From assembly GCF_900116105.1 (NCBI RefSeq), contig NZ_FPAC01000001.1, forward strand, positions 1 through 64,000: a stretch of DNA of 64,000 bases, in the 5' to 3' direction. A program made the translations under genes and the position numbers. Position 1 is the first letter of the stretch. Each line of letters opens with the position of its first letter. Below, in pieces: positions 14,301 through 19,893 of this stretch. This DNA comes from Paenibacillus sp. 453mf. GTDB lineage: Bacteria > Bacillota > Bacilli > Paenibacillales > Paenibacillaceae. A model generated the notes under the pieces. That model made no database searches and was not told the origin of the DNA. It worked only from the letters and a program-made list of their open reading frames with translations.

Positions 14301-15497
14301 TCAGCGCTTATGTTTATATTCTGTCAGGAAATATATGAATGCAAACAATGGTATTAGAACCCCCAGCCATGCACTCCATATCCAGCCGCCGTATGCATAG
14401 GTTAATCCTCCAAGAAATGATCCGGCCGCTCCGCCAATGAAGAATATTGCCATAAATATTCCGTTCAATCTCCCACTCGCTTCATTTCCGAGAGAGTATA
14501 TGATCCTTTGGCTGACAACCAGATTGCCAGACACAGCCATATCCAGTGTGATTGCTGAGATGAATAGCAGCACCAGTGCGACGAAAGAATGGTCATGGAA
14601 CAAGGCAATAAGCAGAAAAGAGCCAATTGCGGTTCCGATCGAGACGATGGTTAGGGTCTTTGTAAACCCTTTATCAGCTAATCCTCCAGCTATAGGAGCG
14701 GCTATGGCTCCTGCTACACCTACCAGGGCGAATAAAGCAATGCCGCCTTGTGTAAATCCGAAGTCGTTGGCAAGTCTGAGAGGGACAACTGTCCAGAAGA
14801 GGCTGAATGATCCGAACAAACAGGCTTGATAAAATGCCCGGCGTCTCAATATCGGGTATTTTCTAAACAGTTGAATTAACGAGGCTACAAGCTGTAGATA
14901 TGTTAATTGATTCTCCGGCTTTCGATGAGGTAAAGAACGCGCAAGCCAGATGGTCAACAGAGCCATGAGCACAGCAGACAGGACATAAATCATCCGCCAC
15001 CCCCAAATGTCTGCGATGAAGCTTGCGGCAGGCCTAGCCAGCATGATTCCGAGTAAAAGGCCGCTCATTACATTGCCTACCACACGGCCTCGTTCTTGTT
15101 CATTGGACAAGTATGCGGCAAGAGGGACGAGAATTTGTGCGACGACGGAGCCCGTTCCGATGAATAAGGTTGCTGTCAAAAACAAAGGGGATTGCGTAGA
15201 AACGGCTGCTATGATGAGAGCGACGACTACAATGGAGAGAACGGAGACCATAAGGCGGCGGTTCTCAAGCTTGTCGCTTAGAGGAACAATGAATAACAGC
15301 CCGACCACATAGCCTATTTGGGTTAAAGTTACGATAAGTCCTGCGGTTTCAGTAGATAGGCCAAGTTCTGTGCTGATGGGACCAACAAGGGTTTGAGAAT
15401 AGTAGAGGTTAGCGACAATCAGACCGCATGCGGTTGCGAAAATAATCATCATCGCAGTTGAAATCTTACTTTGCTTGGTTATATCGACCTCATTCAT
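14301..15497 (-). CDS. Major facilitator superfamily exporter
   Basis: A 398-residue MFS transporter with twelve predicted helices. The helix 2-3 loop motif appears as PLSDKLENRRLMVS, and helix 5 carries GNVMSGLLLGIMLARPAASFIADIWGWRMIY, which resembles drug-efflux MFS proteins of the YgaY/YfmO kind. It is transcribed divergently from a TetR regulator. Operator-like palindromes in the shared 145-bp intergenic region (15529-15551, 15571-15589) imply control by that regulator. Substrate unknown; most likely exports a toxic small molecule. Confidence 0.9.
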   Translation of the reverse strand: MNEVDITKQSKISTAMMIIFATACGLIVANLYYSQTLVGPISTELGLSTETAGLIVTLTQIGYVVGLLFIVPLSDKLENRRLMVSVLSIVVVALIIAAVSTQSPLFLTATLFIGTGSVVAQILVPLAAYLSNEQERGRVVGNVMSGLLLGIMLARPAASFIADIWGWRMIYVLSAVLMALLTIWLARSLPHRKPENQLTYLQLVASLIQLFRKYPILRRRAFYQACLFGSFSLFWTVVPLRLANDFGFTQGGIALFALVGVAGAIAAPIAGGLADKGFTKTLTIVSIGTAIGSFLLIALFHDHSFVALVLLFISAITLDMAVSGNLVVSQRIIYSLGNEASGRLNGIFMAIFFIGGAAGSFLGGLTYAYGGWIWSAWLGVLIPLFAFIYFLTEYKHKR

Positions 15498-15528
15498 AAA
15501 TAATCATTCTCCTTTAACTTTTTTGTAT

Positions 15529-15551
15529 TAAGTAAACGCTACGTTCACTTA
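15529..15551. promoter_or_regulatory. Candidate TetR operator between MFS gene and regulator
   Basis: TAAGTAAACG-CTA-CGTTCACTTA is a 23-bp inverted repeat with a single mismatched pair in the arms. A weaker related sequence containing GAACG-CAT-CGTTT follows at 15571-15589. Both lie between the divergent starts. Confidence 0.72.
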
Positions 15552-15642
15552 ATCGTTGAACAAAATATATACTGAACGCATCGTTTTGTAAATACCCAAT
15601 TTATCATTTATACTGGAGCAAAGGATAGAAAGGGGAATTGGA

Positions 15643-16218
15643 TTGGCAAAGAAGGGGCGCCCAAGGGATGTGACAATTCAACATTCCATATTGTCTGTGG
15701 CTTATGAATTGCTGCTTGAAAGTGGATTTGAAGAGGTAACGATTGAAAAAATTGCTGAGAGAGCAGGAGTAAGTAAAGCCACCATTTACAAATGGTGGCC
15801 TAATAAAGCTGCTGTTGTTGCGGATGGTTTTTTTGAAGGAGCAGCTAGCAGGCTGCCTGTTCCGGATACGGGATCTGTTAAGGAAGATATATTAACTCAT
15901 GCAATCAACCTGTCATTATATATGTCAGGCAAGGAAGGGAAAGTGATCTCCGAGCTGATCGGGCATGGGCAGGTGAATTCGACACTAATCGAAGTATTTA
16001 GACAATACTATATTCAACCTCGTCGTGCGGAAGCCGCAGGAATACTGAGGAAGGGGATTGAACGCGGCGAACTGAGTGCAGAACTGGATGTGGACTCTAG
16101 TTTGGATTTGCTGTACGGCCCTTTATTCTACCGCCTGCTAGTTACAGGAGAGCCGTTAGCCGAGGACAAGGTAAGACCCATCTTGTTAGCAGCATTCGAC
16201 GGAATGAAATCGTTATAA
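15643..16218 (+). CDS. TetR/AcrR-family transcriptional repressor
   Basis: A 191-residue regulator with the TetR helix-turn-helix at residues 10-55 (ILSVAYELLLESGFEEVTIEKIAERAGVSKATIYKWWPNKAAVVADGFFE) and a TetR_C-like ligand-binding domain containing EVFRQYYIQPRRAEAAGILRKGIERGEL. This second half is typical of the group controlling MFS or RND pumps. The TTG start at 15643 is preceded by AAAGGGG. Divergent from the MFS exporter, which it probably represses together with itself through the 15529-15551 palindrome. Confidence 0.92.
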   Translation: MAKKGRPRDVTIQHSILSVAYELLLESGFEEVTIEKIAERAGVSKATIYKWWPNKAAVVADGFFEGAASRLPVPDTGSVKEDILTHAINLSLYMSGKEGKVISELIGHGQVNSTLIEVFRQYYIQPRRAEAAGILRKGIERGELSAELDVDSSLDLLYGPLFYRLLVTGEPLAEDKVRPILLAAFDGMKSL

Positions 16219-16259
16219 CCTATGGCATGAAATGGATTCACTCTATGGATTTTGAACTG

Positions 16260-16285
16260 AGAAGGCCGCTGGCCTTCTTTTTTTA
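16260..16285 (+). terminator. Terminator of the tetR gene
   Basis: AGAAGGCC (16260-16267), GCT loop, GGCCTTCT (16271-16278), T-rich tail. Confidence 0.92.
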
Positions 16286-16295
16286 TTTTTGTGTG

Positions 16296-16328
16296 AGATG
16301 TCGATTTCCACTTCTATTGTTCGTTGTT
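16296..16328 (+). promoter_or_regulatory. Candidate ECF-sigma promoter 1 (before the alpha/beta hydrolase gene)
   Basis: GAGATGTCGATTT followed by TTCGTTGT. TGTCGA (16299-16304) and TCGTTG (16321-16326) are 16 bp apart. The same bipartite sequence with the same spacing precedes the DGPF-sigma operon at 17254-17287, and neither looks like a sigma-A promoter. Likely recognised by the ECF42-type sigma factor at 17830. Confidence 0.72.
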
Positions 16329-16396
16329 CTTATATAAGCAGGTGTTTTTGAAAAAATATCCAATTATATGAAATGAACACAGAGGAGATGAGGAAT

Positions 16397-17233
16397 ATGC
16401 ATTTCGCCATTTCGAAGGACGGTACTCAAATCGCATATGACAAAAAAGGGAACGGTCCCGCAGTCATTCTTGTAACAGGTGCTTTCAGCTATCGAAAGTT
16501 TCCGGCGCAGGTAGAACTGACCGATCTGTTATCCGAGCAGTTTACCGTATACAACTATGATCGCCGGGGCCGTGGAGACAGTGGGGATACCCAGCCCTAT
16601 GCGGTGCAGTGTGAGATTGAGGATCTGGAAGCTGTCATTCACGAGGCTGGAGGCTCGGCAGCTGTATGGGGGCTGTCATCAGGAGCCATCATTGCATTAC
16701 AAGCGGCAGCAAACGGTGCAGCCATTACCAAGCTGGCTTTGCATGAGCCTCCATTTCTAGTGGAAGCTGATGGTCGCAAGGTCCCCGCGGATTTCCTTCA
16801 GCAAGTGACTAGATTGATTAAGGAGAATCGCCGAGCAGATGCTGTCAAATACTTCATGACCACGGGGATGGGAGCGCCAGCCTTTGTCGTCGGCATGATG
16901 CGGATGATGCCTGGTGTTTGGTCCAAATTAGTATCCATTGCTCATACACTGCCTTACGATGCAGCAATAAGTGATGAATACATGAAGGGAAGAGCGCTGC
17001 CCAGGGATCTATGGAGCTCTGTGAAGATACCGACCGCAGTGCTTGAAGGTACCGAGAGTCCAGCAGAGCTGCGTCAGGGAGCTGCTGCTCTTGCGAAGGT
17101 TCTTCCGAATGCACAGCTTGTCAGCAAGAAGGGGCTCGGTCACACCAAGAAACTGAATGCAAAGCTCATTGCATCCGAGCTGTCTGCTTTTTTTGCAGAA
17201 GGTCATTCGACTGCGTTTAGGATTGCAAAATAA
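16397..17233 (+). CDS. Alpha/beta hydrolase
   Basis: A 278-residue soluble alpha/beta-hydrolase fold protein. The nucleophile elbow is WGLSSG (Ser near residue 98), the DRRGRGDSGDT oxyanion/loop motif is near residue 57, and the catalytic His is in GLGHTKK near residue 256. Substrate unknown. ATG 16397 is chosen because AGAGGAG at 16381-16387 precedes it by nine bases; the frame is open from 16373. The upstream promoter motif is shared with the DGPF-sigma operon 165 bp downstream, so the hydrolase is probably an output gene of that sigma factor. Confidence 0.88.
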   Translation: MHFAISKDGTQIAYDKKGNGPAVILVTGAFSYRKFPAQVELTDLLSEQFTVYNYDRRGRGDSGDTQPYAVQCEIEDLEAVIHEAGGSAAVWGLSSGAIIALQAAANGAAITKLALHEPPFLVEADGRKVPADFLQQVTRLIKENRRADAVKYFMTTGMGAPAFVVGMMRMMPGVWSKLVSIAHTLPYDAAISDEYMKGRALPRDLWSSVKIPTAVLEGTESPAELRQGAAALAKVLPNAQLVSKKGLGHTKKLNAKLIASELSAFFAEGHSTAFRIAK

Positions 17234-17253
17234 ATGCAGAACATTATTTTAGA

Positions 17254-17287
17254 GAGATGTCGATTTGCGTGAATATCATTCGTTGTA
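17254..17287 (+). promoter_or_regulatory. Candidate ECF-sigma promoter 2 (before the DGPF-sigma operon)
   Basis: GAGATGTCGATTT followed by TTCGTTGT. TGTCGA (17258-17263) and TCGTTG (17280-17285) are 16 bp apart, exactly as at 16296-16328. The TAT trinucleotide in the spacer is also shared at the same position. This would make the sigma factor autoregulatory. Confidence 0.75.
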
Positions 17288-17398
17288 TACATAAGGAGCG
17301 AAGAACGACTCTGGCTATAGCAATCGGTGAGAGTCAAGCCAAAAAAACGGAAACTCGAGCTGCTTCGCTTCACAATAAAACTTAGGAGGTAGTTAAAC

Positions 17399-17833
17399 AT
17401 GAGATTTATGATGATTGTTAAGGGAACAACGGATTCAGAGGCCGGCAAGCTGCCAAGCAAGGAGCTGATTGATGCGATGCACCGATATAACGAGGAATTG
17501 GCAAAAGCAGGAGTGCTGCTGGGAGGTGACGGCTTAGCACCAACCTCATCAGGAATTCGGATCTCCTATCCGGAGCCAGGCGGCAAGCCGAAGGTGGTCG
17601 ATGGACCATTTACTGAAGCGAAGGAGATTATTGCGGGGTACACGCTCATCGAGGTCAAGTCAAGGGAGGAAGCAATTGAATGGGCGCTGCGCATGCCGGA
17701 TCCCCATGGATTCGGACAGGGCGAGATTGAACTCAGGCAAGTATATGGGATCGAGGATTTAACAGATGATATGGAGTTCATCGAGAAAGAAAATGTGCTG
17801 CGGCAGCGAATTGAGGAGTCCAGAAAAGCGTGA
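17399..17833 (+). CDS. DGPF-domain (YCII-related) protein
   Basis: A 144-residue protein of the YCII/DGPF family: MRFMMIVKGT at the N-terminus, the hallmark VDGPFTEAKEIIAGYTLIEV near residue 66 and EEAIEWALRMPDPHG near 93. It adopts a ferredoxin-like dimer fold; the family has a conserved His/Asp pair but no settled reaction. TTAGGAGG just before ATG 17399 is a strong ribosome binding site. Its stop overlaps the GTG start of the sigma gene by four bases. Genes of this family are the standard companions of ECF42 sigma factors and are regarded as part of that signalling unit. Confidence 0.92.
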   Translation: MRFMMIVKGTTDSEAGKLPSKELIDAMHRYNEELAKAGVLLGGDGLAPTSSGIRISYPEPGGKPKVVDGPFTEAKEIIAGYTLIEVKSREEAIEWALRMPDPHGFGQGEIELRQVYGIEDLTDDMEFIEKENVLRQRIEESRKA

Positions 17834-19095
17834 CCAGAAGCAGCACGACGGGGACAATTGATGCCATATGGCGGATGGAGTCGGCGAAGCTGATTGCAAG
17901 TCTTACGAGAATGGTTCGGGATGTGGGTCTGGCTGAAGATCTTGCGCAGGATGCCTTGGTTATCGCTCTTGAGAAATGGCCGGAATCCGGTATTCCAGAC
18001 AACCCGGGCGCCTGGCTGATGACAACGGCCAAACGCCGTGCCATTGATCTTATGCGCCGAAGCAAAAGGCTTGATCAGAAATATGAGGAGATAGCTAAGA
18101 ATACAGATTTATATACGGAGGAGGACATGGATCGGAGGCTTCACGGGGAGATCAGTGATGATCTTCTTCGTCTGATCTTTATGACCTGCCATCCCGTGCT
18201 GTCACAAGAGGCTAGAGTTGCTTTGACTCTGCGCCTCTTATGCGGACTTACTACGGATGAAATTGCCCGTTCTTTTCTGGCAGCGGAAGCTACGATTGCT
18301 CAGCGCATTGTAAGAGCGAAGAAGACGTTAAGTGCTTCGAAGGTTCCTTTCGAAATCCCGGTAGGGGAAGAGCTGAATAAACGACTGTCCGCTGTTCTTG
18401 AGGTGATCTATCTCATGTTTAATGAAGGATATTCGGCTACCTCGGGGGAGCAATGGTTCCGCCCCTTGTTATGTCAGGAGGCTCTTCGACTCGGACGCAT
18501 GCTGGCTGAAATTGCAGCGCTTGAGCCGGAGGTGCACGGCCTGGTCGCTCTAATGGAGCTCCAATCTTCTCGTCTGAAGACCCGAATCAATAAGGATGGG
18601 GCGCCGGTACTGCTGCTGGATCAGAACAGGGGGCAGTGGGATCATCATTTGATCAGACGGGGGCTTGCTGCCCTTGAACGTGCCCGCAAGCTGGGCCGTA
18701 CACTTGGTCCCTATTCACTACAGGCGGCAATCTCAGCCTGTCATGCGGTGGCTCCTACACCTGAAGCTACAGATTGGATCCGGATTGCGGCACTATATGA
18801 AGCTTTGTCCCGAGTATCTCCTTCACCTGTGGTTGAACTAAATCGGGCGGTTGCCGTATCAATGGCATTTGGTCCTGAATTTGGACTTCAGCTTCTCGAC
18901 GAGTTAATGGGGGAGCCAGCGCTTAGAGGGTATCATTTGCTTCCGAGTGTTAGAGGAGATCTGTTAATGAAGCTTGGACGCTTCGATGAAGCTCGGACTG
19001 AATTGGAGCGGGCTGCTTCCATGACACGAAATGTCCGCGAGCGTGAGCTCTTGTTAGGCAGGGCTGCTGTATGCAGGGACAAAGGAAGGGGATGA
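17830..19095 (+). CDS. ECF42-type RNA polymerase sigma factor with long C-terminal extension
   Basis: A 421-residue sigma factor. Region 2 (about residues 18-90) reads LIASLTRMVRDVGLAEDLAQDALVIALEKWP..GIPDNPGAWLMTTAKRRAIDLMRR, and region 4 (about 120-170) has RVALTLRLLCGLTTDEIARSFLAAEATIAQRIVRAKKTL. The remaining 240 residues form an alpha-helical extension (YLMFNEGYSA..., LCQEALRLGRMLA, PYSLQAAISACHA, ALYEALSRVSPSPVVELNRAVAVSMAFGPEFGL) with TPR-like character. This extension and the DGPF partners define the ECF42 group, which has no anti-sigma factor. GTG 17830 overlaps the preceding stop (GTGA). The extension probably controls activity. Confidence 0.93.
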   Translation: MTRSSTTGTIDAIWRMESAKLIASLTRMVRDVGLAEDLAQDALVIALEKWPESGIPDNPGAWLMTTAKRRAIDLMRRSKRLDQKYEEIAKNTDLYTEEDMDRRLHGEISDDLLRLIFMTCHPVLSQEARVALTLRLLCGLTTDEIARSFLAAEATIAQRIVRAKKTLSASKVPFEIPVGEELNKRLSAVLEVIYLMFNEGYSATSGEQWFRPLLCQEALRLGRMLAEIAALEPEVHGLVALMELQSSRLKTRINKDGAPVLLLDQNRGQWDHHLIRRGLAALERARKLGRTLGPYSLQAAISACHAVAPTPEATDWIRIAALYEALSRVSPSPVVELNRAVAVSMAFGPEFGLQLLDELMGEPALRGYHLLPSVRGDLLMKLGRFDEARTELERAASMTRNVRERELLLGRAAVCRDKGRG

Positions 19096-19099
19096 AGGC

Positions 19100-19555
19100 A
19101 TGAGAATGATGCTGATGATCAAAGCCACAGATTACTCCGAGACCGGTGTAAATTACAGCTCGGAGCACACGAAGAAGCTTCAAGAATACAAAACGATGCT
19201 GGCGCGAGAAGGCATACTGCTCGCAGAGGAAGAGCTTCAGCCGAGTACAAGAGGGATAAAAATCACGTATTCGCAAGATGGAAAGCCTGAGCTGCTGGCA
19301 GGTCCTTTTGAGGGGAACAGCAAGGAGCTTGTAGCAGCGTATTATGTGTTTGATGTGGAGACGGAGGAGGAAGCTGTGCAGTGGGCACTGCGAATGCCGA
19401 TCGGGGCAGGTCAGGCTGGTCATGAGCTTGAGCTCAGATGGCTTGAAGAGAAGGGCGAACGAAAGCGAGAGCCTGTAATTGAAGGAATGGAAGCGGATCT
19501 GCAGGAGCAGCTGTATATTTATCAAAATCAGCCTAAAGGGAGCGAGCGAGTATGA
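19100..19555 (+). CDS. Second DGPF/YCII-type protein (AGPF variant)
   Basis: A 151-residue YCII-related protein: MRMMLMIKATDYSETG, then LLAGPFEGNSKELVAAYYVFDVETEEEAVQWALRMPIG. It parallels the first DGPF protein at 17399 but carries AGPF in place of DGPF and has a longer charged C-terminus (EEKGERKREPVIEG). The change of the signature Asp suggests a distinct role, for instance as heterodimer partner, but this is inference. It starts four bases after the sigma gene stop and overlaps the next gene by four bases (ATGA), so it belongs to the same operon. Confidence 0.88.
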   Translation: MRMMLMIKATDYSETGVNYSSEHTKKLQEYKTMLAREGILLAEEELQPSTRGIKITYSQDGKPELLAGPFEGNSKELVAAYYVFDVETEEEAVQWALRMPIGAGQAGHELELRWLEEKGERKREPVIEGMEADLQEQLYIYQNQPKGSERV

Positions 19556-19893
19556 ATCAAGAAGTTACGGCATTTATTGAACAGATCAAGGAACCTTGGC
19601 AAGGAGATTTAGCTGTGAACCTGCGGAATGCGGTACATGCAGCTATACCGGAAGTGACGGAACGGATACAGTACAAGAAGCCACACTTTTTAAAAAATGG
19701 AAAGTATGCAGCTGTCATCTCCACTTCGAAAGAGGCGGTCAGCTTTACCATATTTAATGCAACAGGTCTTGCACTTCCAGAAGGGGAATTTGAAGGGCCT
19801 GAAGAAAGAAAAACCCGGAAGCTGCGTAAAGGCGACGCCATTGATCTGGATCAGCTGACAGAATGGGTGAGGCAGGCCTCGGAATCTCTTTAA
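19552..19893 (+). CDS. DUF1801 family protein
   Basis: A 113-residue protein of the DUF1801 (YdhG/YdeI-like) fold: VTAFIEQIKEPWQGDLAVNLRNAVHAAIPEVTERIQYKKPHFLKNGKYAAVISTSKEAVSFTIFN, with the family Pro-His-Phe segment near residue 43. Members are small SRPBCC-unrelated alpha/beta proteins; one Bacillus member has been proposed as an iron chaperone. Translationally coupled (ATGA) to the second DGPF gene and followed by a terminator, so it is the last gene of the sigma operon. Confidence 0.85.
   Translation: MNQEVTAFIEQIKEPWQGDLAVNLRNAVHAAIPEVTERIQYKKPHFLKNGKYAAVISTSKEAVSFTIFNATGLALPEGEFEGPEERKTRKLRKGDAIDLDQLTEWVRQASESL

Follow-up and report, generated by a model that had tools for sequence, protein, structure and literature searches.

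In Streptomyces venezuelae, whose ECF42 factors were studied by Liu, Pinto and Mascher (2018), a DGPF gene reportedly lies beside the sigma gene, the promoters are said to combine a TGTCGA -35 with a CGA/TC -10 element, and each Streptomyces sigma is said to control mainly its own DGPF operon. The ECF42 circuit itself is of a known type and is poorly described in the bacterial group considered here. ECF42 proteins consist of sigma regions 2 and 4 with a TPR extension (excerpts of PMC8999054 and PMC8103513), and this C-terminal extension was reported to be necessary for activity (PMC8999054, same excerpt). For RpoE10, the ECF42 factor of Sinorhizobium meliloti, the accessible part of PMC6180224 gives three promoter sequences, which by our count have the form TGTCGG-N17-CGTC. 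It was also reported there that overexpression of RpoE10 did not raise SMc01151, the YCII gene before rpoE10, indicating that autoregulation is not universal in the ECF42 group. In the portions of the literature that were searched, with Liu et al. 2018 and Casas-Pastor et al. 2021 outside that search, neither a Bacillota ECF42 regulon nor a start-region element was encountered, and no priority is claimed.

The window, a 64-kb (64,000-nucleotide) stretch of a Paenibacillus genome, contains the pattern TGTCGA-N16-TCGTTG at 16299-16326 (+, site 1) and 17258-17285 (+, site 2). A sequence-only reading of this DNA had proposed two matching bipartite motifs with an equal 16-base spacing, and pattern search confirmed both, the outer coordinates of that reading being about one base off; it had also placed one motif before a hydrolase gene and the other before a DGPF-sigma operon, which agrees with the start codons ATG 16397 and ATG 17399. 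In all likelihood both sites are promoters read by the ECF42 sigma factor (gene at 17830-19095), site 2 serving its own operon and site 1 the hydrolase. As judged from the sequence, the circuit would very probably be autoregulated, and the sigma factor is predicted to control the hydrolase in the cell. The parts of the locus are as follows.

15643-16218, + strand: TetR regulator gene, directly upstream of site 1
16259-16290, + strand: intrinsic-terminator-like hairpin with a T run, separating the TetR gene from promoter 1, function presumed
16286-16290, + strand: T-tract upstream of the site 1 -35, UP-element-like, role presumed
16299-16304, + strand: candidate promoter 1, -35 element TGTCGA (pattern and profile)
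16321-16326, + strand: candidate promoter 1, -10 element TCGTTG (pattern and profile)
16332-16339, + strand: candidate promoter 1, start-region element ATATAAGC at conserved positions 33-40, predicted start A16334
16397-17233, + strand: alpha/beta hydrolase, putative ECF42 target (PF12697, scan begun at 16373; PDB 3r0v, E 1e-64)
17247-17250, + strand: T-tract upstream of the site 2 -35, one base closer than usual
17258-17263, + strand: candidate promoter 2, -35 element TGTCGA (pattern and profile)
17280-17285, + strand: candidate promoter 2, -10 element TCGTTG (pattern and profile)
17291-17298, + strand: candidate promoter 2, start-region element ATAAGGAG, a weaker match, predicted start A17293
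17399-17833, + strand: YCII/DGPF-domain protein, encoded at the head of the sigma operon (PF03795; DGPF in its sequence)
17830-19095, + strand: ECF42 sigma factor with sigma2, sigma4, DUF6596 and a TPR-like C-terminus (PF04542, PF08281, PF20239)
19100-19555, + strand: second YCII-domain protein (PF03795)
19552-19893, + strand: DUF1801 protein, its gene presumably closing the operon and overlapping the second YCII gene (PF08818)

The terminator-like hairpin has a 9-pair stem (16259-16279) followed by a T run, three such structures occurring in the stretch against 3.5 expected, and site 1 starts 19 bases past the stem. Translation of the hydrolase probably begins at ATG 16397, which is preceded by GAGGAG. 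In the operon YCII/DGPF - sigma - YCII - DUF1801 neighbouring genes overlap or lie at most 5 bases apart, the GTG start of the sigma gene overlapping the stop of the preceding YCII/DGPF gene. On the far side of the TetR gene and divergent from it (15643-16218, +), an MFS-like transporter, assigned by its sequence only, is encoded at 14301-15497 (-), and no ECF42 profile site was detected between these two genes (search range 14301-16218).

The sigma factor comprises 421 amino acids, with region 2 (PF04542, 3e-11), region 4 (PF08281, 1.7e-10) and a C-terminal extension recognized by PF20239 (1.7e-36, residues 185-285), where TPR_16 and TPR_2 also match, below their cut-offs; a TPR-rich extension of about 200 residues marks the group, and the window sigma has one of this kind. 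Other ECF42 traits were found as well: YCII genes flank the sigma gene (17399-17833 and 19100-19555), no anti-sigma family is represented among the six genes at 15643-19893, and the candidate target promoters carry TGTCGA exactly, with a -10 element, CGTT, that differs from CGTC by one base. Among the NCBIfam matches listed (25 of 49) only the general sigma70-ECF model scored above its cut-off, and no PDB relatives were found at E 1e-5. A tree built from 84 sigma rows pairs the window sigma with that of its nearest relative, G047 (support 100/99), inside Bacillota and puts the five other sigmas of the genus in two other places, suggesting that transfer, loss or paralogy is likely.

When spacers of 14-18 bases were allowed, the window gave two matches against 0.03 expected, and none of 100 dinucleotide shuffles of it gave two. 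The whole genome, an assembly of 5.24 Mb in 24 contigs with a completeness of 99.78%, contains TGTCGA-N16-TCGTTG at sites 1 and 2 only, the reversed control having no match; with TCGTYG allowed there are still two matches, and also two of the reversed control. Searching the genome for TGTCGAT-N14-TTCGTYG with up to two mismatches produced no excess (49 matches versus 99 for the reversed control). These include 47 near matches other than sites 1 and 2, and among the 28 of the 47 that had a locus and were scored with the profile described below, the best reached 6.1 bits versus 42.7 for site 1 and 37.7 for site 2, so that the scored matches contain no further site of the quality of these two. 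A profile trained without the window and its nearest relative gave 42.2 bits for site 1 and 36.6 bits for site 2. A weak sigma-A-like match (9/12) at 17250-17279 overlaps site 2, but it does not constitute evidence because shuffled sequences give a similar number of matches of that grade (5.4 +/- 2.3, versus 9 in the stretch), and the sigma-A search of the stretch returned no convincing sigma-A promoter.

The candidate ECF42 regulon put forward in the sequence-only reading is supported by the co-occurrence of motif and sigma gene, the fixed spacing, the strand bias and the placement of the sites before YCII genes and hydrolases. Relatives of the sigma factor were detected in 7 of 75 genomes of the genus (E <= 1e-20) and in 95 of 295 genomes of the family (E <= 1e-30). 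Among the latter, 87 carry an orthologue with an identity of 60% or more (fragments only in G209, G260, G264 and G301), and in eight the sole relative is of a second kind, 32-36% identical; this family search scored at most six candidates per genome, so that some genes may be missed. TGTCGA-N16-TCGTYG is present in all seven sigma-bearing genomes of the genus and also in 26 of the 68 others, eight of which share one identical sequence; since this pattern is too common alone and its reversed control is still more frequent, the longer pattern TGTCGAT-N14-TTCGTYG was used. It occurs in 97 of the 295 family genomes, that is, in 86 of the 87 with an ECF42 orthologue versus 11 of the 208 without (Fisher p 8e-61, relatedness ignored), and the mean number of sites per genome is 2.59 versus 0.058, which makes the motif specific enough for regulon prediction by sequence. 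At class level 299 genomes were drawn, 27 of which (including two of the ten sigma-bearing ones) also belong to the family draw; here the pattern occurs in 9 of 10 genomes with the sigma gene versus 21 of 289 without (p 3e-9). Enrichment of the motif near ECF42 genes in relatives, which had been suggested as a check, was observed in both draws and is strong at the sequence level. G285, the only orthologue-bearing genome without the strict motif, has a profile site in its locus. The highest number of exact motif sites among the 295 family genomes searched, 11, is found in G191. In G159 (contig C12, locus L089), where no orthologue was detected, two full motif sites stand before DoxX-like and YCII genes, possibly an orphaned regulon or a case of a missed sigma gene.

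Spacing and orientation were analysed in 87 ECF42 loci (the window, six others of the genus and 80 of the family), a set that overlaps the 87 orthologue-bearing genomes and is not identical to them. The strand of the sigma gene carries TGTCGA-N16-TCGT[CT]G 132 times, the opposite strand never; spacers of 15 and 17 bases are absent from both strands, and the remaining spacings between 10 and 22 occur at most twice each. The profile built from these strict sites detects, at 12 bits or more, 152 sites on the sigma strand and none on the other, in 86 of the 87 loci, the exception being L138, whose genome (G247) has three sites elsewhere. The minority -10 form CGTTG accounts for 37 of the 132 strict sites, which indicates that CGTT, present in both window sites, is tolerated in the family; the nearest relative has CGTC at both corresponding sites. 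A preference of each sigma factor for C or T as the fourth base of the -10 element was considered and rejected, as concordance in loci with at least two sites was 0.654 versus 0.645 +/- 0.043 after shuffling (p 0.45). Two further resemblances between the window sites did not hold in the wider set: the shared spacer TAT is not conserved (its middle A is found in 13 of the 132 strict sites), nor is the GAGA ahead of TGTCGA (at most 0.12 bits per position).

The first gene behind the 152 profile sites encodes a YCII protein in 85 cases, a hydrolase in 33, a VOC (glyoxalase-like) protein in 17, a DUF1801 protein in 9, a RibD_C protein in 4 and a sigma factor in 2, two being unclassified. In 63 of the 87 loci a site immediately precedes the YCII gene most similar to the first one of the window; in 22 it does not, and in two that gene was not detected. 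A homologous hydrolase gene is present in 46 of the 87 loci; in 33 the site lies directly before it, and in the other 13 it lies 428-2595 bases upstream on the same strand, in four of them preceding a RibD_C gene. At site 2, the distance from the end of the -10 element to the start codon is 113 bases versus a median of 55 before YCII genes. A further 70 loci around pattern matches were inspected, 30 as returned (some inside ECF42 loci) and 40 chosen by the authors among the matches listed, a choice by which the following counts are no census: 77 profile sites in 67 loci, with YCII behind 21, VOC 16, hydrolase 15, RibD_C 5, a DoxX-like group 5, a DUF998 group 4, DUF1801 2 and others 9, including one MFS transporter 256 bases from its site. 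Pfam scans of ten representative genes fit the assigned names. Several open reading frames behind remote sites in high-GC genomes resemble wrong frames and were left unclassified, and three strict remote sites (L102, L205, L209) were set aside as probable chance matches owing to their low profile scores.

The 129 strict Paenibacillaceae sites that remained after removal of duplicates reveal conservation beyond the two boxes. T is found at -12 to -9 in 63-72% of them, forming a T-tract upstream of the -35 element, GT precedes the -10 element and T follows it. Positions 33-40 form a block, A T A G A R G C, that carries 0.66-1.44 bits per position versus 0.00-0.49 at positions 29-32, 0.09 at position 41 and 0.09-0.44 at most spacer positions. 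The block is present in YCII, hydrolase, VOC and DUF1801 promoters, and four RibD_C promoters, much alike, carry it in part. Over positions 28-41 site 1 fits well (10.8 bits) and site 2 partially (7.1 bits). Two S. meliloti promoter sequences given in the accessible part of PMC6180224 end, by our count, at position 35, which was taken as the start; one of these ends in lower case, which according to the table note denotes a start found by both methods. Transferred to the window, this position would make A16334 and A17293 the predicted first transcribed bases, with the block spanning about -2 to +6. In the promoter complex of Mycobacterium tuberculosis sigma-L, as described in the available portion of PMC6372665, bases are contacted at +1 and +2, in the core recognition element, and a G at +2 would fit this element of an ECF complex. 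The block carries 0.27-0.99 bits per position in 33 sites from other phyla; because some spacer positions there reach 0.95 bits and the T-tract is absent, the case for a start-region element is weak outside the family.

A second ECF42 paralogue (32-36% identity) was found in 34 of the 295 family genomes, 26 of which also possess the orthologue; none was found in the genome of the window, where the sigma search gave one match. Upstream of the paralogue, on its strand, TGTAGA-N17-CGAC occurs in 16 of 20 loci (L223-L242), the others having TGTCGA with CGTC (L228, L238), TGTAGA with CGTC (L242) or neither (L225). The pattern TGTAGAAAT-N14-CGACWT is present in 22 of the 34 paralogue genomes versus 6 of the 261 others, and in a few of the 22 (e.g., G166, G177, G184) the site that was listed lies away from the paralogue. 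The 20 paralogue loci contain no strict site of the window type, and the 87 window-type loci contain one strict site of the paralogue type. In sigma4, column 161 holds T in all 16 paralogues with TGTAGA/CGAC; L242 (TGTAGA/CGTC) also has T, the two paralogues with TGTCGA have S, and 83 of the 87 window-type sigmas have V, the other four T. A single-residue code for the -35 element at this column was rejected, since the sigma factor of G031 (L009/L015), the one of these four that was traced, carries T and still has a TGTCGA site; given these four sigmas, column 161 represents a lead and not a code. For the choice of the -10 element, no sigma column cleanly splits the classes (column 35 is V in 15 of 16). 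It can be proposed tentatively, with doubt outweighing confidence, that the Paenibacillaceae ECF42 promoter consists of the T-tract, TGTCGATT, CGTTCGTYGT and a TAGARGC-like start-region element at about -1 to +6, either read by the polymerase around the start or acting in the transcript; that the start-region part, given its weaker form in other phyla, is older than the family; and that the paralogues are insulated by few changes in the same geometry (TGTCGA..CGTY versus TGTAGA..CGAC), constituting a natural sigma-specificity code.

Across the bacteria, 80 named loci with an ECF42 relative, the best 80 of 590, were examined, and TGTCGN-N17-CG[TA][CT] was found on the sigma strand in 71 of these 80, with 118 sites versus 10 on the opposite strand. 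In the same loci TGTCGA-N-CGT[CT] peaks at a spacing of 17 (80 versus 1), with further peaks at 13 (42 versus 1) and 20 (40 versus 3); these were read as probably the same sites because CGT occurs twice in the consensus CGTTCGTCGT, at a distance of seven bases. The form of the -10 element varies with the phylum, being TCGTCG in 45 and TCGTTG in 16 of 64 Bacillota sites, CGAC in 12 of 15 Actinomycetota sites, CGTC in 10 of 11 Pseudomonadota sites and CGAC in 11 of 14 sites of a mixed group (Gemmatimonadota, Myxococcota, Chloroflexota, Acidobacteriota). The TGTCGA-type -35 that the sequence-only reading had given for ECF42 targets in actinobacteria agrees with these loci and with the S. meliloti RpoE10 promoters, and the same -35/-10 distance in the latter indicates that the motif is of a known type; the Streptomyces consensus of TGTCGA with CGA/TC fits as well.

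In the proposed mechanism, the sigma factor bound to RNA polymerase would recognize two elements at a fixed distance, its sigma4 region contacting TGTCGA as the -35 and its sigma2 region contacting CGTT, a CGTC variant, as the -10. Site 2 would then direct transcription of YCII-sigma-YCII-DUF1801, so that the sigma factor would amplify its own synthesis, and site 1 that of the hydrolase gene, the TPR-like C-terminus being the probable control point of the sigma factor according to the literature. The minority -10 form, the partial start-region fit of site 2 and its 113-base distance to the start codon speak against this interpretation, as do the S. meliloti overexpression result, locus L138 and genome G285, the 24 loci in which the YCII gene is not directly behind a site or was not detected, and the 11 genomes that have the motif with no orthologue detected. 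The first of these points may be taken to mean that the sites are ECF42 promoters by descent that are now weak or being lost through the change of CGTC to CGTT, the genes being expressed mostly from undetected sigma-A promoters, and the presence of CGTC at both sites of the nearest relative would agree with such decay. It is nevertheless improbable: CGTT is tolerated in the family, site 1 keeps its remaining elements intact, the search for sigma-A promoters turned up nothing convincing, and the fourth base of the -10 element is no more concordant within loci than after shuffling.

Even less probable is that the motif is the operator of a DNA-binding regulator and not a promoter, for example of the TetR protein, whose gene (15643-16218) immediately precedes site 1; the motif lacks inverted-repeat symmetry, keeps one orientation to the sigma gene and a spacing fixed to the base, tracks the ECF42 gene across hundreds of genomes and matches the promoter form of the S. 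meliloti ECF42 factor. The two copies lie 959 bases apart and share 13 identical bases around the -35 element, as a recent local duplication would leave them, but an origin by duplication or by chance is hardly credible in view of the shuffled windows, the differing remainder of the 16-base spacers, the retention of both elements with differing spacers in other families and phyla, and the co-occurrence with the sigma gene. Promoters read by the ECF42 factor are thus the preferred explanation of sites 1 and 2.

What the analysis would add to the known circuit is a predicted Bacillota regulon, a start-region element, a T-tract and a paralogue with a promoter type of its own. The predicted regulon includes YCII/DGPF, alpha/beta hydrolase, glyoxalase-like, RibD_C, DoxX-like, DUF998 and DUF1801 proteins, whose genes offer concrete handles for seeking the ECF42 signal, and the paralogue pair provides a natural series for finding the residues that set promoter choice.

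Compared with the Streptomyces circuits, the window differs in that a separate hydrolase gene carries the motif and in that the -10 element is CGTT. The architecture of the sigma factor, sigma2-sigma4 with a TPR C-terminal extension, is that of S. venezuelae Sven_0747, Sven_4377 and Sven_7131 (PMC8999054, in the part available). Pseudomonas putida ECF-10 belongs to the same group and also has the TPR extension; as cited in that part of PMC8999054, it was studied through its knockout phenotype in stress and biofilm formation. The sigma-L holoenzyme of M. tuberculosis can serve as a model for the start-region element, although sigma-L belongs to another ECF group and an extended TAGARGC element is not described in the accessible sections of PMC6372665. 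The RpoE10 system of S. meliloti resembles the window in its -35/-10 distance, in the YCII gene before the sigma gene and in having more than one target unit; it differs in its TGTCGG -35 element and in its induced genes, which are conserved hypothetical, some of them glyoxalase-like (PMC6180224, in the part available).
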